Shown one piece after another: positions 10,883-56,396 of a stretch of DNA of 64,000 nt. The notes under the pieces are model-generated. The model did not search any database. It worked only from the letters and a program-made list of their open reading frames with translations, and was not told the origin of the DNA. The DNA is from Thermus sp. CCB_US3_UF1 (GTDB lineage Bacteria; Deinococcota; Deinococci; Deinococcales; Thermaceae). The stretch lies in assembly GCF_000236585.1 (NCBI RefSeq), contig NC_017278.1:868001-932000 (forward strand), read 5' to 3'. The translations under genes were made by a program, and so were the position numbers. Numbering within the stretch: position 1 is the stretch's first letter; every line of letters starts with the position of its first letter.

Positions 10883-13730
10883 GGGCTTCGGCCCCTACCG
10901 GGAAGCGCAGGCGGTGGACTTTTCCGATGTGGAGCTCTTCGCCATCACCGGGCCCACGGGGAGCGGGAAGAGCACCCTCCTGGACGCCATGGCCTTCGCC
11001 CTCTATGGCCGCGTGCCCCGGGTGGGGCGGAGCGTGAAGGAGCTCAAGCACCCCGCGGTCCCCGAGGCCCGGGTGCGCCTGGTCTTCCAGGTGGGGGGAC
11101 GGGTTTTCCGCGTGGACCGGGTCCGGGGGAGGCGGAGCGAGGACCGGCTTTTTGAGATCCTGCCCCAAGGGGAGCGCCTTCTGCCCCTGGAGCGCCAGGC
11201 GGAGTTCAACGAGCGGATGGCCCAGATCCTGGGCCTTTCCTACGAGGCCTTCACCCGGGCCCTCCTCCTGCCCCAAGGGGAGTTTGACCGCTTCCTCAAG
11301 GGGGAAGCCCGGGAGCGGCACGAGATCCTGGCGGACCTCTTTGGGCTTGCCCTGTTGGAGCGGGCCCGGGAAAGGGCCGCCGAAAGGCGCTCGGCCCTTC
11401 TGGAGGAGAAGGGGCACCTGGAGGGGGAGCTCCGCCCTCTGGAGGGGGCCACCCTCGAGGCCAAGGAGGCCCTGGAGGGGGAGCTTCAGGGCCTGCGGAA
11501 GGAGATCGCCCGGCTTACCCGGGAGGAAGGGCGCCTGGCGGAGGAGGCCAAAGGGGCGCAGGAGGCCCTCCGCCTCCTTCGGGAGCGGCACGCCCTGGAG
11601 TCCTGGCGGGCCCGCCTCCAGGCGGAGGCCCCGGCCATGGCCGCCCTGGAGGCGCGGCTTGCCCGGGCGGCGGAGGCGGAGCGGGCCCTGCCCCTTTGGC
11701 GGGACCTCCGCGCCAAGGAGGAGGCCCTCAAGGGGACGCAAGGGGAGCGGCAAGGGGTGGAGGCCCGGCTTGCCGACCTGATGGAGGCCCGGCGGGCCCT
11801 AGCCTTTTCCCCCGAGGCCCTAAGGGCCGCCCGGGAGGCCCTTCTGGAGGCCCAGGAGCTAAAGGCCCTGGAGGCCCTCTGGCGCCGGGTGGGCACGCAA
11901 GCCCACCCTACCCCCCGCCTGGACCCGGCGGCCCTGGAGGGGGTGCTGGCGGAGGAGGACCGCCTGGCGCGGGAGGCCGAGGCCCTAAGGGCCTGGGCCC
12001 GGGCCAAGGCCCGGCGCGAGGAGGAGGAAAAGGCCCTTTCCCGCCTCCAGGAAGAGCTCTCGGCCCTGGAGAGGGAAGGGAAGGCCCTTCGGGCCGAGGC
12101 GGAAAGGGTGGAAGGGGCCTTGCAGGCGGCCACCGCCCACCGCCTTAAGGAGGAAGTGGCCGCCCTAAGGGCGCGCAAGGAGGAGTTGGAAAGGGAGCGG
12201 GCCCGCCTGGAAAGGGCCTTGGAAGAGCTGGCCCGGGAGGAGCGGCGCCTTGGCCTTTGGGCCTACCGCGACCTCCTGGAGCCCGGGAAGCCCTGCCCCC
12301 TCTGCGGGGGGGTGGTCCACGCCCTGCCCCCCCTGGGGGAGCCCTCCCGGCTTGCCCTGGAGCGGCGTTCCCTGGAGGAGGAGCTCCAGGCCCTGCTCCG
12401 GCGGCTTGGGGCCCTGGAGGGGGAGCTGGCGGAGAAGGAGAAGGCCCTTTCCGCCCTTCCCGAGCCCCTTCCCGGGGACCTCGAGGCCCTGCAGACAACC
12501 CTGGAAGGGCTCAAGGAACGGTTGCAGGCCCTGCGGGAGGGGTATAGGGAGCTCCAGGGGAAGGCCAAGGCCATGCAGGAGGGGCTGGCGAGGCTTCGGG
12601 AGGAGGAAGCCCGCCTGGCCCCAAAAGGGGTGGAGGAGCCGGAGGCGGCCCTCCAGCAGGCGGAGCGGGCCCTGGCCGCCCTGAGGGCGGAAAAGGAGGC
12701 CCTGGGGGCGGGGCTTTACCGCCACCTCCAGGAGAGGACCGGGGGCCAGGGGGTGAAGGCCCACCTGGAGGCCCTCCGGGCCCGGGTGAAGGACCTGGAG
12801 GGGCAGGAGAGGGAGGACCAGCGGCTTTCCCAGGCCATCCAGGAGGCCGAGCACCGCCTGGCGGCCCTAAAGGCCAAGGAGGCCGAGCAGGAGCGGGCCC
12901 TGGCCGAGGCCCGGGCCCGGGTGGAAGGGCTTCTTCCCGAGAGGGAGGCGGAAGCCCTTTACCTTCCCCCAGGGGAGAAGGAGGCCCTGGAGGCCCAGCT
13001 GCGCACGCACCGGGAGGAGTGGGCGGAGGTGGAGGCCCGCCTGCGCGCCCTTCCCCCGGCCCCGCCCCTTTCCCTGGAGGAGGCCGAGGCAAGGGTCCAG
13101 CAGGCCCAGAAGGTCCTGGAGGAAAGCCGGAAGGCCCTGGAGGACCTAAAGCGGCGGGAAGCGGTCCTGGAGGAGCGCCTAAGGGGGCTAGAGAGGGATC
13201 TGGACCGCCGCCGGGAGCTGGAGGGCCGCCTGGCCCAGGTGGCCCAGGAGGTGGCTCTGTGGGAGAAGCTGGCCCTGGACCTCCAGCGGCACAACTTCCC
13301 CACCTACCTCCTGGGCCTGCGGCAGCAGCACCTGGTGGCGCGGGCCGACGAGCTCCTCCACACCCTTTCCGGAGGGCGGTACCGGCTGCGGGCCCGGGGG
13401 AGTGAGTACGCGGTGCTGGACCTCTGGACGGACGCGGAGCGCCCGGTCAAGACCCTTTCCGGGGGGGAGAGCTTCCTGGCCAGCCTGGCCCTGGCCCTGG
13501 CCCTTTCCGAGGAGCTTTCCCAGGGGAGGCTTGGGGCCCTTTTCCTGGACGAGGGCTTTGGCACCCTGGACCCGGAAACCCTGGAGCTGGTGGCCGGGGT
13601 GCTGGAGAGCCTGCCCACCCGGGGGCGGTTGGTGGGCATCGTCACCCATGTGGAGGCCCTGGCGGAGCGGCTTCCCGCCCGGCTTCGGGTGCGCAAGCAC
13701 CTCTCGGGGAGCCGGGTGGAGTGGGCCTAG
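10857..13730 (+). CDS. sbcC: Exonuclease subunit SbcC (Rad50-like SMC ATPase)
   Basis: A 957-residue Rad50/SbcC ATPase that works with SbcD on DNA ends and hairpins. The N-terminal Walker A is GPTGSGKST near residue 33. Two long Glu/Arg/Leu-rich coiled coils flank a zinc hook CPLC near residue 480. The C-terminal signature is LSGGESFLASLALALAL, with Walker B LGALFLDEGFGTLD. The TTG start at 10857 overlaps the sbcD 3' end by 26 bp and has GGAGGAGGTGGAG just upstream, so translation is probably coupled to sbcD. This makes the sbcD frameshift functionally relevant for sbcC. Confidence 0.93.
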   Translation: MRPLRLELEGFGPYREAQAVDFSDVELFAITGPTGSGKSTLLDAMAFALYGRVPRVGRSVKELKHPAVPEARVRLVFQVGGRVFRVDRVRGRRSEDRLFEILPQGERLLPLERQAEFNERMAQILGLSYEAFTRALLLPQGEFDRFLKGEARERHEILADLFGLALLERARERAAERRSALLEEKGHLEGELRPLEGATLEAKEALEGELQGLRKEIARLTREEGRLAEEAKGAQEALRLLRERHALESWRARLQAEAPAMAALEARLARAAEAERALPLWRDLRAKEEALKGTQGERQGVEARLADLMEARRALAFSPEALRAAREALLEAQELKALEALWRRVGTQAHPTPRLDPAALEGVLAEEDRLAREAEALRAWARAKARREEEEKALSRLQEELSALEREGKALRAEAERVEGALQAATAHRLKEEVAALRARKEELERERARLERALEELAREERRLGLWAYRDLLEPGKPCPLCGGVVHALPPLGEPSRLALERRSLEEELQALLRRLGALEGELAEKEKALSALPEPLPGDLEALQTTLEGLKERLQALREGYRELQGKAKAMQEGLARLREEEARLAPKGVEEPEAALQQAERALAALRAEKEALGAGLYRHLQERTGGQGVKAHLEALRARVKDLEGQEREDQRLSQAIQEAEHRLAALKAKEAEQERALAEARARVEGLLPEREAEALYLPPGEKEALEAQLRTHREEWAEVEARLRALPPAPPLSLEEAEARVQQAQKVLEESRKALEDLKRREAVLEERLRGLERDLDRRRELEGRLAQVAQEVALWEKLALDLQRHNFPTYLLGLRQQHLVARADELLHTLSGGRYRLRARGSEYAVLDLWTDAERPVKTLSGGESFLASLALALALSEELSQGRLGALFLDEGFGTLDPETLELVAGVLESLPTRGRLVGIVTHVEALAERLPARLRVRKHLSGSRVEWA

Positions 13731-14289: not shown

Positions 14290-15279
14290 ATGCGGCGGTT
14301 TTTGGCCCTCTTGTTGTTCCTTGGTCTGGCCCTGGCCCAGGGCCTCGAGGCCTTCTGGAAGGCGGTGGAGGTTCCGGGCGGCCTCTGCTCCGACGGCTCC
14401 CCCTACCGCTTCTACGTAAGCCCGGGGGATCCCAAGAGGCTCGTCCTGGACTTCCAGGGGGGCGGGGCCTGCTGGAACGCCGCCACCTGCAGCGCGGAGA
14501 GCCAGACCTACCGCAAGCGGGTGGACGTGCAGGAGCTCCTCCTGGCCCAGGGGATCTACAACCGCCTGAGCGCGGCCAACCCCTTCGCGGGCTGGACCCA
14601 TGTCTTCATCCCCTACTGCACCGGGGACCTGCACGTGGGCCGGGCCACGGTGGACTACGGGGGGTTCAGGGTCCACCACCAGGGGGCCAGGAACGTCCAG
14701 GGGGTCCTGGACTACGTCTTTAGGAACTACACCAACCCCGAACGGGTCTTCGTGACCGGGTGCTCCGCCGGGGCCTACGGGGCGGTCTTCTGGGCCGACC
14801 GGGTTCTTGCCGCCTACAAGGAGGCCCAGGTGGCGGTGTGCGGGGACGCCGGGGTGGGGGTGCGCACCGAGGGCTTCCCCGGCTTCGCGGTGTGGAACCC
14901 CCGGCTGCCCGAGGTCGCGGGGCTTTCTCCCAACCCCCAGGTGGCGGAGATCTACCTGGTCCTGGCCCGGGCCTTCCCCAAGGCCCGTTTCGCCCAGTAC
15001 ACCACGGCCTTGGACGGCACCCAGGTCTTCTTCTATGGCCTCATGAAGGGGGAGCGCACCCCCTCCGAGGCCACGGCCCGGGAGTGGGCGGAAGGGGCCC
15101 AAAGGGCCCTCCTCCTTCCCGCCCAGGCGGAGAACTACACCCTCTACCTGGCCCCCGGGAGCCAGCACTGCATCCTGCCCCGGCCCGAGCTCTACACCCT
15201 GAAGGTGGGGGAGGTGGCCTTCCTGGACTGGCTCAGGTCCCTGGCTGAGGGGAAGACCCCCCCTCGGGTGCGCCCCTGA
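14290..15279 (+). CDS. Pectin acetylesterase-like secreted hydrolase
   Basis: A 329-residue exported protein: signal peptide MRRFLALLLFLGLALAQ, then the plant-type pectinacetylesterase/Notum fold. The oxyanion-hole motif GGGACWN is at 57-63, the nucleophile Ser159 lies in GCSAGAYG, and a late SQHC gives the likely catalytic His. Several cysteines could form disulfides. Thermus homologues are often called VtpJ-therm, and the natural substrate is unknown. The gene has its own strong promoter and an excellent ribosome binding site. Its last 47 bp overlap the convergent HExxH gene. Confidence 0.82.
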   Translation: MRRFLALLLFLGLALAQGLEAFWKAVEVPGGLCSDGSPYRFYVSPGDPKRLVLDFQGGGACWNAATCSAESQTYRKRVDVQELLLAQGIYNRLSAANPFAGWTHVFIPYCTGDLHVGRATVDYGGFRVHHQGARNVQGVLDYVFRNYTNPERVFVTGCSAGAYGAVFWADRVLAAYKEAQVAVCGDAGVGVRTEGFPGFAVWNPRLPEVAGLSPNPQVAEIYLVLARAFPKARFAQYTTALDGTQVFFYGLMKGERTPSEATAREWAEGAQRALLLPAQAENYTLYLAPGSQHCILPRPELYTLKVGEVAFLDWLRSLAEGKTPPRVRP

Positions 15280-16012
15280 GGCCGAAGGCGGCGAACCAGT
15301 CCCGGAGCTCGGGGTAGAGGCTGAGGAGGAGGCGGTGCCCCTTCCTGCGGTCCAAGGGGGCCGCGTCCAGAAAGGCCCTAAGGAGCCTGTCCCCCTCCGC
15401 AAGGAGGGCCTCGGCCTTGAGGGTGAACTGGGCCTGGAACCAGAGGGCGCTTTCCAGGTTGCCCCGCCGCCTTTCGTAGGCGGAAAGGCTCCGCACCCTG
15501 GGGCTGAGCCCCGCCAGGTAGCGGCTCCAGGCCAGAAGGGTTTCCCCGAGCTCCGGCCTGGCCCCCTTCAGGCCCAGAAGGAAGAGGTAGTTGGCGAAGA
15601 ACTCGTCCAGCCAGCGGGCCCCCGTGCGCAGGCGCCAGGCCACCTGGACCGCGTGGGCGTACTCGTGCCCCAGGTTGAGGTCCAGGAGAAGGGCGGGCTC
15701 CCCCGGAGGGGGGCCTAGGGGGAGGAGGACCTCCCGCAGGCGGTGGAGGAGCCTTTCCGGGTAGGTGAGGGGGGCGTAGACGGCCAGGCCCTGGGGGCCC
15801 GTGTGCTGGAAGGGAAGGCCGTAAGGATAGGCCAGCCTTTGCCGCCAGTCCCTCTCCGAGAGGGCGTACAGGGTCACCGGGGGGATGGGGGCGTAGGCGG
15901 CGTAGACCGCCCGCAGGGCCAGGAGGTAGTCCCTAAGGGCCTGGGCCCTCAGGGCCCCGCCCTGGGAGGCGAAGGCGGGCAGGTGGGGGTGGGGGAGGGC
16001 GAGGAGGGGCAT
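15233..16012 (-). CDS. HExxH-motif putative metalloprotease-like protein
   Basis: A 259-residue protein without a clear signal peptide or membrane segment. I do not recognise the family, but it has HEYAH at 116-120 and an ordered Glu at 137 (DEFFANY), the HExxH..E spacing of gluzincin zinc peptidases. A ~60-residue Arg/Leu-rich helical tail follows. Its ATG overlaps the recG stop (ATGA, 16012), so it is translated in an operon after recG. Its 3' end overlaps the convergent esterase gene by 47 bp. Peptidase activity is inferred from the motif only. Confidence 0.6.
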   Translation of the reverse strand: MPLLALPHPHLPAFASQGGALRAQALRDYLLALRAVYAAYAPIPPVTLYALSERDWRQRLAYPYGLPFQHTGPQGLAVYAPLTYPERLLHRLREVLLPLGPPPGEPALLLDLNLGHEYAHAVQVAWRLRTGARWLDEFFANYLFLLGLKGARPELGETLLAWSRYLAGLSPRVRSLSAYERRRGNLESALWFQAQFTLKAEALLAEGDRLLRAFLDAAPLDRRKGHRLLLSLYPELRDWFAAFGLRGAPEGGSSPQPGT

Positions 16013-39832: not shown

Positions 39833-40297
39833 ATGCCGCCCGAAGTTTACGTGATCCTGGTGGCCGCCCTGCCGGTGGTGGAGCTCCGGGGGGCCATCCC
39901 CCTGGGGGTGGCCCTGGGCCTGCCGCCGGGGAAGGCCTTTTTCCTGGCCCTCCTGGGCAACCTCCTGGTGGCCCCGGTGGCCTTAGGGCTTTTGCCCTGG
40001 GCCATCCTCCTCCTCACCCGGTTTCCCCTCCTGGCCCGGGCTTGGGAGGCCCTCGAGGCCCGGGTGCGCCTCAAGGGGGAGGAGCAGGTGCAGCGCCTAG
40101 GGGCCTTGGGCCTTTTCCTCTTCGTGGCCGTGCCCCTGCCCGGCACCGGGGCCTGGAGCGGGGCGGTGCTGGCCGTGGTCTTGGGGCTTAGGCGCCGCTA
40201 CGCCCTTCTGGCCATCTCCTTGGGGGTTCTGGCGGCGGGGCTCATCGTTCTCCTCCTTACGGGGGGGGCGGTGGCCGGGCTAAACTACCTGCGATGA
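39833..40297 (+). CDS. Small multidrug export family membrane protein
   Basis: A 154-residue membrane protein with three or four hydrophobic segments. The N-terminal LVAALPVVELRGAIPLGVALGL and the later VAVPLPGTGAWSGAVLAVVLGL are signatures of the 'small multi-drug export protein' Pfam family, whose real substrates are uncertain. It lies right after the rplT terminator. Its stop overlaps the start of the PlsY-like/AAR-like fusion gene (ATGA), so the two membrane proteins are probably coexpressed with mqnB. Confidence 0.82.
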   Translation: MPPEVYVILVAALPVVELRGAIPLGVALGLPPGKAFFLALLGNLLVAPVALGLLPWAILLLTRFPLLARAWEALEARVRLKGEEQVQRLGALGLFLFVAVPLPGTGAWSGAVLAVVLGLRRRYALLAISLGVLAAGLIVLLLTGGAVAGLNYLR

Positions 40298-41955
40298 CGG
40301 CCTTGCTCCTTCCCTTGGCCTACCTCTTGGGGGCCCTCCCCCTGGGGTACTGGCTGGCCCGGCGGCGCGGGGTGGACCTGCGTACGGCCAGCCCCTACAC
40401 CCTAGGCCTCGAGAACGCCTTGAGGCGGCTCGGCCTCGGCCTAACCCTCCTTTCCTTCCTTCTGGACTTCCTCAAGGGGTACCTGCCCCTCCTCCTGGGC
40501 CGGGGCCTAGGCCTGGACCTGGCCGGACTCCTCCTCCTGGGGGTGGGGGTCTACCTGGGCCACCTTTACCCCCTCTTTTTCCGCGACCCCTGGCCCCTGC
40601 GGGCCAAGGGGGCCGGGGTCTTGCTGGGGGTTTTGGCGGCCCTGCCCCTGGAGCCGGCCCTGGGTCTTTTGCCCGTGGCCCTCGCCCTGGGGCTTTACGC
40701 CCTTACGGGCTACGCCTCCTTGGGGGCCTTGGGGCTTCCCCTGGGCCTTTTGGGGGCGACCTTCCTCGGGGGGTTTTCCCCTGAGGAAAAGCTTTGGGCG
40801 GCCCTTCTCTTCCTCCTTGCCCTTTGGCGGTACAAGGAGAACCTGGGGCGCATCCTGGAGGGGACCGAGCCCCGCTTGGGCAACCCCTTACCCCTTCCCT
40901 CGGAGCGGCAGGTGGTCTGCGCCTTTCTCATCCACCCCCTTACCCTGGAAGATTTCTGGCAAAGTCCCCGCTTCCGCTGGGCCAGACCCCTAGTGCGCCT
41001 GGGCCTTTTGCCCCAGGCCTGGGTGGAGCGCCTGGCGGAGTTCTTCCGCCCCATGAAGGTGGGGGAGGTGCGGGGGGTGCGGACCGCGGACGGGCGGGAG
41101 ATCCTCTGCCACCTCATCTCCGCCCCCCTCCTGCCCCACCAGATCAAGGGCAAGCCGGAGCTGGCGGTGCGGCGGGCGGTCCAGGGGGCGCGTCTGGCCC
41201 GCGAGCTGGGGGCCACGGTGGTGGGCCTGGGGGCCTTCTGGAGCGTGGTAGGGGAGAAGGGAAAGGCGGTGCAGGAGGCGGTGCCGGGCATAGAGGTGAC
41301 CAACGGCGGGGCCTACACCGCCGGCACGGTCAAGGCCGCCATCCCCGCCATCCTGGCCCACTTTGCCCAAAGCGGCAAGGACCTGAAGGCCACCACGGCG
41401 GCTGTGGTGGGGGCCAACGGGGTGGTGGCCTTCGGCATCGCCCGGCAGATCGCCCCCCTGGTGGGGCGGCTCATCCTGGTGGGGCGGGACCAGGAGCGGC
41501 TGGAAAAGGCGGCGGAGAGCCTTAGGAAGAACCTGGAGCGCAAGGGGCAGGCCCCCGAGATCCTGGTCTCCACCGAGGTGGGGTCCATCAAGGAGGCCGA
41601 TTTGGTCTTCACCGCCACCAGCGACCCCAACCCCGTCATCCTGCCGGAGCACGTGAAGCCAGGGGCCTGGATCTACGACGAGGGGGTGCCCCCCGATGTC
41701 CACCCGGCGGTCCGGGGGGTGCCGGGGGTGCGGGTCATCCCCGGGGGGGTGGTGCGGCTTCCCGGGGCCGCCCGGGCCACCCTGGACCTCCACTTCGGTG
41801 CCCCCGACCAGGTGCCGGCCTGCCTGGCGGAGACCATGATCCTGGCTGCGGAGGAGGCCTTTTCCCGCAAGAGCCTGGGCGGGGAGGTGAAGGCGGAGAA
41901 CATCCAGTTCTTCGTGGAGCGGGCGGAGGCCTTGGGCTTCCGGGTGGTGGAGTAG
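40294..41955 (+). CDS. Fusion: degenerate PlsY-like membrane domain plus acyl-ACP-reductase-like domain
   Basis: A 553-residue two-part protein. Residues 1-200 look like a PlsY acyltransferase membrane domain (LPLGYWLARRRGVDLR, GHLYPLF, YKENLGRILEGTEPRLG), but the catalytic GSGNxGATN and GGKGVAT motifs are replaced by ASPYTLGLEN and RAKGAGV. Residues about 207-553 resemble cyanobacterial long-chain acyl-ACP reductase (AAR): LGAFWSVV, a TNGGAYTAGT segment, Rossmann loop VVGANGVVAFG at 371-381, GGVV, and PAC510LAETMIL aligned with AAR's catalytic Cys. It may make fatty aldehydes or alcohols at the membrane. A separate intact plsY lies at 55791. Overlaps neighbours by 4 and 1 bp. Confidence 0.72.
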   Translation: MTALLLPLAYLLGALPLGYWLARRRGVDLRTASPYTLGLENALRRLGLGLTLLSFLLDFLKGYLPLLLGRGLGLDLAGLLLLGVGVYLGHLYPLFFRDPWPLRAKGAGVLLGVLAALPLEPALGLLPVALALGLYALTGYASLGALGLPLGLLGATFLGGFSPEEKLWAALLFLLALWRYKENLGRILEGTEPRLGNPLPLPSERQVVCAFLIHPLTLEDFWQSPRFRWARPLVRLGLLPQAWVERLAEFFRPMKVGEVRGVRTADGREILCHLISAPLLPHQIKGKPELAVRRAVQGARLARELGATVVGLGAFWSVVGEKGKAVQEAVPGIEVTNGGAYTAGTVKAAIPAILAHFAQSGKDLKATTAAVVGANGVVAFGIARQIAPLVGRLILVGRDQERLEKAAESLRKNLERKGQAPEILVSTEVGSIKEADLVFTATSDPNPVILPEHVKPGAWIYDEGVPPDVHPAVRGVPGVRVIPGGVVRLPGAARATLDLHFGAPDQVPACLAETMILAAEEAFSRKSLGGEVKAENIQFFVERAEALGFRVVE

Positions 41956-42632
41956 TGTGGCTTCTCCTTTCCCCCACGGCCCTCGAGGCCCCCTTTCTCC
42001 AGGGGGAGGCCTTTACCTTCCTGGGCCGCAAGGGGCTAAGGGGGGAGGGCTTCGTCTACCTGGAAACGGGGATCGGCAAGGTCAACGCCGCCCTCACCCT
42101 GGCGGCCTGGGCGGCGCGCCACCCGGTGGAGCAGGCCCTCCTCTTCGGCCTCGCGGGCGCCTATCCCCATAGCGGACTGGCCCTGGGGGAGGTGGTCCTG
42201 GTGGGGGAGGAGGTGGAGGCGGACCTGGGCCTAAGGGAGGGCCTTGCGCCCCTGGGCTTCCCCGCCTTGGAGGTGGGGGGGGTGCGCTACCACAACCGCT
42301 TTCCCCTGGACCCCGGCCTCACCCAGGGCCTAGCCCAGGGCTTGGGCCTGCGGGTGGTGGTGGGCCTGACCCGGGACCTGGTTTCGGAAACCCCGGGGGA
42401 GGCCCGTTCCCTGGCCGAGGGGTGGGGGGCGGACCTGGAAAACATGGAGGGGGCAGCCTTCGCCCGGGTCTGCCTGGCCCTGGGCTTCCCCGGGGCCGAG
42501 CTCAGGGCCATCTCCAACCCCGCGGGGAACCGGGACAAGGGGGCCTGGCGGGTGAGGGAGGCGGTCTTGGCCCTGGGGGAGACGGTGGGGCGGATCCTAA
42601 AAAGGGGGCCCCGCGGAGCCCCCTTGGCCTAA
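41955..42632 (+). CDS. mqnB: Futalosine hydrolase
   Basis: A 225-residue nucleoside-phosphorylase-fold enzyme. Signatures are ETGIGKVNAALTLA, FGLAGAYPHSGLALGEVVLV and the base-binding ENMEGAAFARV. MqnB releases hypoxanthine from futalosine in the alternative menaquinone pathway used by Thermus; a 5'-methylthioadenosine nucleosidase is the main rival call. The GTG start overlaps the previous stop by one base (TAGTG). A terminator for the convergent sodA lies inside its last codons. Confidence 0.87.
   Translation: MWLLLSPTALEAPFLQGEAFTFLGRKGLRGEGFVYLETGIGKVNAALTLAAWAARHPVEQALLFGLAGAYPHSGLALGEVVLVGEEVEADLGLREGLAPLGFPALEVGGVRYHNRFPLDPGLTQGLAQGLGLRVVVGLTRDLVSETPGEARSLAEGWGADLENMEGAAFARVCLALGFPGAELRAISNPAGNRDKGAWRVREAVLALGETVGRILKRGPRGAPLA
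42598..42625 (-). terminator. Intrinsic terminator of sodA, inside the mqnB 3' end
   Basis: On the minus strand an 8-bp stem (AAGGGGGC / GCCCCCTT, 8-nt loop) is followed by TTT. It begins 18 bp after the sodA stop and overlaps the last mqnB codons. Confidence 0.75.
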
Positions 42633-55790: not shown

Positions 55791-56396
55791 ATGGCTTCGG
55801 TGGCGATCATCCTGCTCCTGGCCTACCTGTTCGGTTCCGTCCCGGCTGGGGTCCTGGTGGCCAGGACCTACGGGGTGGACATCCGCAAGGTGGGCTCGGG
55901 CAACATCGGGGCCACCAACGTCCTCAGGACCTTGGGGCTGGGACCGGCCCTGGTGGTGGCCTTTTTTGACGTGTTCAAGGGAGGGATTGCCGTGCTCATC
56001 GCCCGGGCGGTGGGCCTCGAGGGGTGGCTCTTGGGGGGGGTGGCCCTGGCGGCGGTGCTGGGGCACAACTACTCCTTGTTCCTGGGCTTCCGGGGGGGGA
56101 AGGGGGTGGCCACCAGCTTTGGCACCCTGCTCTTCCTGGACCCGGCGCTGGCCCTTTGGACCCTGCCCATCGGCCTTTCCGTCATGCTCCTCACCCGGTA
56201 TGTTTCCGCCGGGAGCATGACCGGGGGGGTGGCGGCCACCGTGTTGGCCCTGGCTCTGGGCCGCCCCCCCTGGTTGGCCGCCACGGTGGCCCTCATGGCC
56301 CTCCTCATCTTCTGGACCCACCGGGAGAACCTGAGGCGCCTGCAGGCGGGCACGGAGCGGCGCCTGGGCGAGCGGGTGGAGGTGGGGGGTGCTTGA
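55791..56396 (+). CDS. plsY: Glycerol-3-phosphate acyltransferase (acyl-phosphate type)
   Basis: A 201-residue membrane enzyme that acylates glycerol-3-phosphate from acyl phosphate, first step of phospholipid synthesis. All three PlsY motifs are intact: [19 protein letters not shown] (from residue 28), [19 protein letters not shown], and [17 protein letters not shown]. This makes it the functional PlsY of the window, in contrast to the degenerate PlsY-like domain of the fusion protein at 40294. It overlaps the PIG-L gene by 8 bp. Confidence 0.96.

Follow-up and report, generated by a model that had tools for sequence, protein, structure and literature searches.

Which reaction is served by a protein that joins, in one polypeptide, a membrane domain resembling the acyltransferase PlsY and an enzyme resembling acyl-ACP reductase (AAR)? 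The question is raised by an open reading frame of Thermus sp. CCB_US3_UF1, located in the window analysed here, a 64,000-nucleotide stretch of contig NC_017278.1, for which an earlier note had proposed a membrane-anchored reductase making fatty aldehydes or alcohols. By the computational analysis described below, the protein is the leading candidate to date for initiating synthesis of the fatty-amine tail in the signature membrane lipid of the phylum Deinococcota.

Architecture of the fusion protein

The reading frame at 40294–41955 starts with ATG, has no internal stops and encodes 553 amino acids, with the following organization:

40294..41955 (+): fusion gene, PlsY-like membrane domain plus acyl-thioester reductase, 553 aa (HMMs and AlphaFold2 model)
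40294..40893 (+): PlsY-fold membrane half, residues 1–200 (PF02660; VIA-align against 5xj7)
40387..40416 (+): remodelled PlsY motif 1, ASPYTLGLEN, residues 32–41 (alignment; site roles from PMC5700162)
40561..40563 (+): His90, equivalent to His92 of Aquifex aeolicus PlsY (aaPlsY), acyl-phosphate hole (invariant in 49/49)
40600..40611 (+): remodelled PlsY motif 2, Arg103-Ala104-Lys105-Gly106 (alignment of 49 members)
40912..41952 (+): acyl-ACP/thioester-reductase half, residues 207–553 (TIGR04058, NF053554, Foldseek, VIA-align)
41410..41430 (+): predicted nucleotide-binding motif GANGVVA, residues 373–379, GxxGxxA/G (first two Gly in 49/49)
41821..41823 (+): Cys510, aligned with AAR Cys294 (invariant in 49/49)

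The frame is a true fusion of a PlsY fold and an acyl-ACP reductase fold, and neither chance nor an assembly artefact can account for it, since full-length fused homologues come from many independent assemblies and both Pfam domains are matched by all 49 aligned members. Within Thermus, both halves are under purifying selection, with a median dN/dS of 0.21 for the PlsY half and 0.11 for the reductase half.

The AlphaFold2 model of the fusion protein, computed with the A2 alignment of the 49 fused homologues as input, displays a mean pLDDT of 94.1 and a pTM of 0.91. The best Foldseek match of the model is AAR (PDB code 6jzu, E = 4e-18), and PlsY (5xj7) is matched with a target TM of 0.85. According to VIA-align, the reductase half superimposes on AAR with Z 27.1 and rmsd 3.0 over 321 residues, and the PlsY half on 5xj7 with Z 21.5 and rmsd 2.4 over 187 residues; the N-terminal similarity to PlsY, which the earlier note had named as one point where its reading could fail, therefore holds on the predicted model. 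A phmmer search of PDB sequences retrieves PlsY (5xj5, E = 1e-24), PigE (4ppm, 2.6e-13) and AAR (6jzu, 2.8e-12).

Searching the two halves separately by HMM, as had been advised, places the PlsY family at the N-terminus and PigE, AAR and Shikimate_DH at the C-terminus. The profile matches comprise (i) PF02660 (PlsY) over residues 8–187, with E = 1.7e-28 and 100 bits against a gathering threshold of 24.1, which bears out the PlsY outline previously drawn for residues 1–200; (ii) the glycerol-3-phosphate (G3P) acyltransferase equivalog TIGR00023, with 73.7 bits, under the cut-off of 137.2; (iii) the acyl-ACP reductase TIGR04058 over residues 260–549, with E = 1e-13 and 51.3 bits against a curated cut-off of 449.7; (iv) PigE (NF053554) over residues 258–550, with E = 3e-30 and 105 bits against a full-length cut-off of 850; and (v) the Rossmann domain Shikimate_DH over residues 361–482. 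By these scores the protein belongs to both superfamilies, but its membership is certified for neither of the named functions.

The reductase half

The whole-half fold is that of cyanobacterial AAR, as the earlier note had judged by eye, whereas the nearest family by profile is PigE (105 bits vs 51 for AAR); in trees, the fusion reductases form one clade apart from both. Assignment to an unrelated dehydrogenase was rejected, AAR being the top fold match, with glutamyl-tRNA reductase and shikimate dehydrogenase well below.

AAR carries an acyl-thioester on its catalytic cysteine, from which reduction with NADPH yields the aldehyde (PMC9743570). Cys510 shares its column of the profile alignment with AAR Cys294, where the C294S mutant structure 6jzz has serine, and it is the predicted catalytic cysteine of the fusion protein. 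It is invariant in the 49 members together with G373, G376, R402, D462 and E513, and the third position of the GxxGxxG motif is Ala in 38 and Gly in 11 of them; the fold and the cysteine singled out beforehand are upheld, and so are the first two glycines of the nucleotide motif. Taken by itself, reductase activity of the fusion protein is highly probable, and there is strong reason to expect both a long-chain acyl group as its substrate and an aldehyde as its product. The general proposal of a membrane-anchored, fatty-aldehyde-making reductase is in this respect supported by the two computed folds and the Cys510 equivalence.

A remodelled PlsY site

The roles of the PlsY site residues follow the A. 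aeolicus enzyme, in which T41 contacts the carbonyl and H92 lies in the acyl-phosphate hole (PMC5700162); aaPlsY numbering is used for the reference residues. Conservation was counted in the 49 fused members, 40 of which are of Deinococcota type. The equivalent of H92 (His90) is present in 49/49 and that of K104 (Lys105) is Lys or Arg in 48/49, while Arg103 replaces Gly102 in all members and Glu40 replaces Thr41 in 39 of the 40 Deinococcota-type members. Among the latter, S35 is kept in 4/40, H177 in 8/40 and N180 in 16/40; the window protein displays P, R, K, N, A and Y at S35, R45, K104, N180, S142 and H177, respectively. The motif readings of the earlier note (ASPYTLGLEN, RAKGAGV and PAC510LAE) proved correct. 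As judged from the alignment, the acyl-phosphate elements of the site persist, and the G3P clamp is lost in Deinococcota-type members.

Although visibly less conserved between genera than the reductase half, the PlsY half has its own invariant residues (His90, Arg103, Lys61, Gly89 and Glu192 in the 49 members). Simple decay was rejected because of this invariant site and the purifying selection, which argue for a half that is remodelled and not degenerate. L114, L122 and L123, three MAG members that are not of Deinococcota type, keep S35, T41, N42, R45, H92, K104, S142, H177 and N180, and among the tabulated members the G3P-binding residues are kept in full only in these three. Moreover, 6 of 10 such MAG genomes, those of L114, L122 and L123 among them, yielded no PlsY-family gene besides the fusion, which is to be taken as a lead since the MAGs may be incomplete. 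These sequences suggest that the ancestor may have combined a functional PlsY with a reductase, and that the PlsY site drifted where a separate plsY exists. The earlier view that the Thermus copy is free for a new role is borne out as regards the separate plsY, and needs refining where it implies a domain simply freed or degenerate, given its own invariant site and the intact residues in the three MAG members.

Genomic setting

The flanking genes and the separate plsY of the window are as follows:

39833..40297 (+): small multidrug export family gene (PF06695), upstream of the fusion, its stop overlapping the fusion ATG
41955..42632 (+): mqnB, futalosine hydrolase, downstream with a one-base overlap (TIGR03664, E = 6e-50)
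55791..56396 (+): intact plsY, separate from the fusion, none of its canonical substrate residues being lost; ATG start exactly at 55791

Because of the stop-ATG overlap, the PF06695 gene and the fusion are probably co-transcribed. A survey of neighbourhoods found mqnB next to the fusion in Thermaceae only, and dnaB with other housekeeping genes in Trueperaceae; it disclosed no shared metabolic neighbour, and no conserved aminotransferase or lipid gene beside the fusion.

The intact plsY at 55791 had been recognized beforehand, and its start at exactly that position is confirmed. PlsY-family matches occur in 111/111 Deinococcota genomes, with four in most Thermus. A third family protein, of 180 aa, is encoded at G000:C2:1409971-1410489 (−), was read in L151:7966-8508, and adjoins SufE-like and SDR genes; it shows the motifs GSGNPGALN and RGGKALATG, keeps S35, R45, H92, K104 and H177, and has Asp for N180 and Leu for T41. 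PF02660 has a fourth match at G000:C2:804047. The locus L151 also holds a CRISPR-like array (12630-13587), in which a repeat of roughly 36 bases (GTCGCAATCCCCTTACGGGGAAGCCACTTTTGCAAC) occurs 13 times at a spacing of 69–78 bases.

PlsX, which makes acyl-phosphate, is present in 105/111 Deinococcota genomes. Among the fusion-bearing MAGs, which may be incomplete, it was found in 5/10 and not in G112, G114, G116, G118 and G119 (reached via L116, L121, L123, L129 and L105); either incompleteness or a different acyl donor would account for the five cases. In many Thermus genomes, plsX and a second class III aminotransferase gene are about 1.5 kb apart, in divergent orientation (G000:C2:1967325-1970889).

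Distribution of the fusion

The reductase half is found in 107/111 Deinococcota genomes, including 84 of the 85 of good quality, and each family of the 111-genome set yielded full-length fusions. When named genomes were scanned, 79 loci emerged, in Thermus, Meiothermus, Calidithermus, Trueperaceae, Deinococcales MAGs, and MAGs with the labels Armatimonadota, Bacillota and Actinomycetota, a few of which were confirmed to carry the fused form. The phylogenetic spread, which the earlier note had recommended examining, is therefore that of a feature present nearly throughout the phylum and in a few MAGs labelled as other phyla, and is not specific to Thermus. A PlsY-length open frame precedes every reductase locus with enough upstream sequence, and among the 79 loci no complete reductase of this clade was found to lack a PlsY half. 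No earlier description of a PlsY-reductase fusion was found in the literature searched, and two comparative-genomics papers make no mention of it.

Deinococcaceae make alkylamine lipids; both genome lists contain no Deinococcus or other Deinococcaceae genome, and a plasmid search for relatives of the reductase half yielded no Deinococcus copy. The control Deinobacterium chartae matches the AAR model, with unstated strength, and so does Methanocaldococcus, which makes the presence of the fusion in Deinococcaceae plausible and not proven. An AAR-like reductase with 28% identity to the window protein is encoded at 14382-15281 of MT835709.1, a contig without annotation that is recorded as Bacteriophage sp.; it is probably bacterial DNA or a carried gene.

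A proposed role in alkylamine lipid synthesis

The major phospholipid of Thermus and Meiothermus contains an N-glyceroyl alkylamine and is related to the phosphoglycolipid of D. radiodurans, and has been termed a lineage marker (PMC3035268); Oceanithermus displays a lipid of the same mobility (PMC3111992). The amine of T. thermophilus is iso-C17, with a chain identical to that of its iso-C17 fatty acid (PMC3398001), a correspondence that fits a route from acid to aldehyde to amine without loss of carbon. As of 2022, the enzymes for the third, alkylamine chain were still to be identified (PMC9636437). Related systems combine both steps: the reductase domain of PigE converts a thioester into an aldehyde used by its own aminotransferase domain (PMC8341465), and its relative TamH converts C12-ACP into the C12 amine (PMC9594044).

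In the proposed mechanism, the fusion protein would act as a membrane-anchored, NAD(P)H-dependent fatty-acyl reductase: (i) the acyl group, coming from acyl-ACP or from an acyl-phosphate held by the PlsY half, would form a thioester on Cys510; (ii) reduction with NAD(P)H would yield a fatty aldehyde released at the membrane; (iii) a separate class III aminotransferase would convert the aldehyde into an alkylamine; and (iv) this amine would enter the glyceroyl-alkylamine phosphoglycolipid as its third chain. Most likely, the PlsY half would bind or deliver the acyl donor and would not acylate G3P, because its pocket retains the parts for the acyl chain and the acyl-phosphate and lacks the G3P clamp. 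We give the full chain, from the fusion reductase to the alkylamine lipid of the phylum, a probability of about 0.5; conversion of the aldehyde into alkylamine is held with moderate confidence, and the supply of the acyl donor by the PlsY half with weak confidence.

Every more distant, plasmid-borne relative of the reductase half bears the annotation of a class III aminotransferase protein; the only one examined, from Methylocystis, is a full-length PigE. In the Thermus genome, one class III aminotransferase (G000:C2:1418272-1419513) stands clearly closest to the aminotransferase domain of PigE, with 309 bits against 204 for the runner-up, and is a candidate partner by sequence. Its score as a putrescine aminotransferase is good as well, and its close orthologues (at least 72%) are found only in families f1 and f4, of Thermaceae and Marinithermus type; Trueperaceae-type genomes, where the fusion is retained, showed none. 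The putrescine-type score, this restriction to two families and the lack of a conserved aminotransferase or lipid-gene neighbour count against the alkylamine chain. So does the occurrence of the fusion in labelled MAGs of Armatimonadota, Bacillota and Actinomycetota, in which, to our knowledge, alkylamine lipids are not known.

The same reductase chemistry might instead lead to long-chain diols, fatty alcohols or another lipid, a rather unlikely outcome. In its favour, Meiothermus may contain minor quantities of long-chain diols (PMC3035268), the family reaches Trueperaceae and other MAGs without a documented amine lipid, and no aminotransferase is linked to the fusion gene. Against this, the nearest family, PigE, and the plasmid relatives have aminotransferase partners, and the alkylamine lipid is major and matched to the fatty-acid chain, whereas the diols are minor. 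Of the end products envisaged earlier, the fatty aldehyde is retained, and the unspecified alcohol gives way to the alkylamine, which fits better. Alkane synthesis was rejected as an unlikely purpose: aldehyde-deformylating oxygenase (ADO, PF11266), already noticed as absent from the window, was detected in 0/111 Deinococcota genomes and in the positive control S. elongatus.

Other alternatives concern the PlsY half. Its clamp-less pocket could take the acyl-phosphate made by PlsX and pass the acyl group to Cys510, the two halves forming one enzyme; we consider this doubtful. That it is still an acyltransferase, toward G3P or another acceptor, with the reductase drawing on the same acyl pool, is improbable: intact substrate residues at every checked position in L114, L122 and L123, and the six MAGs with the fusion as sole PlsY-family gene found, speak for such a bifunctional lipid enzyme, and the clamp loss in Deinococcota (S35, H177 and T41 to Glu), the separate PlsY-family genes there and the detection of PlsX in just half of the ten MAGs, which may be incomplete, speak against it. 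Very improbable is a mere membrane anchor devoid of any ligand role, with the reductase alone being of importance; the relaxed dN/dS and the lower conservation between genera would agree with it, but the five invariant residues exceed the needs of an anchor and the reductase clade yielded no complete copy lacking the PlsY half.

Significance and comparison with known systems

Glyceroyl-alkylamine phosphoglycolipids mark the Deinococcus-Thermus lineage, and the near-universal fusion gene offers a plausible, testable first step toward them. The protein would also represent a new domain pairing, of an acyl-phosphate-binding membrane fold with an acyl reductase; if the halves work as one enzyme, it would be an integral-membrane acyl-phosphate reductase for the first step of fatty-amine lipid synthesis. 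Fusion proteins of this kind risk being named as simple glycerol-3-phosphate acyltransferases through their PlsY-family match.

Compared to cyanobacterial AAR (S. elongatus, 6JZU, TIGR04058), the fusion reductase preserves the whole-half fold, the position of the catalytic cysteine and the GxxGxx motif, but displays about 25% identity, is fused to PlsY, lacks an ADO partner and mostly carries Ala at the third Gly (38/49). PigE and TamH, which convert an acyl thioester into an aldehyde, are the best sequence family of the reductase half and share its Cys motif; the fusion differs in having an N-terminal PlsY half in place of an aminotransferase domain and in forming a separate tree clade. With A. 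aeolicus PlsY (5XJ5–5XJ9) it shares the fold, the phosphate-hole His and the Lys/Arg of motif 2, whereas the Deinococcota fusion lacks the G3P clamp and has the invariant Arg103 and the near-invariant Glu40. Finally, the carmabin TAD domain (9E50/9E56 and related entries), reported in NAD(H)-bound structures, one with a Cys linked to dephospho-CoA, ranks second among the fold matches of the reductase half (VIA Z 22.5), but shows 18% identity and belongs to a nonribosomal-peptide assembly line.
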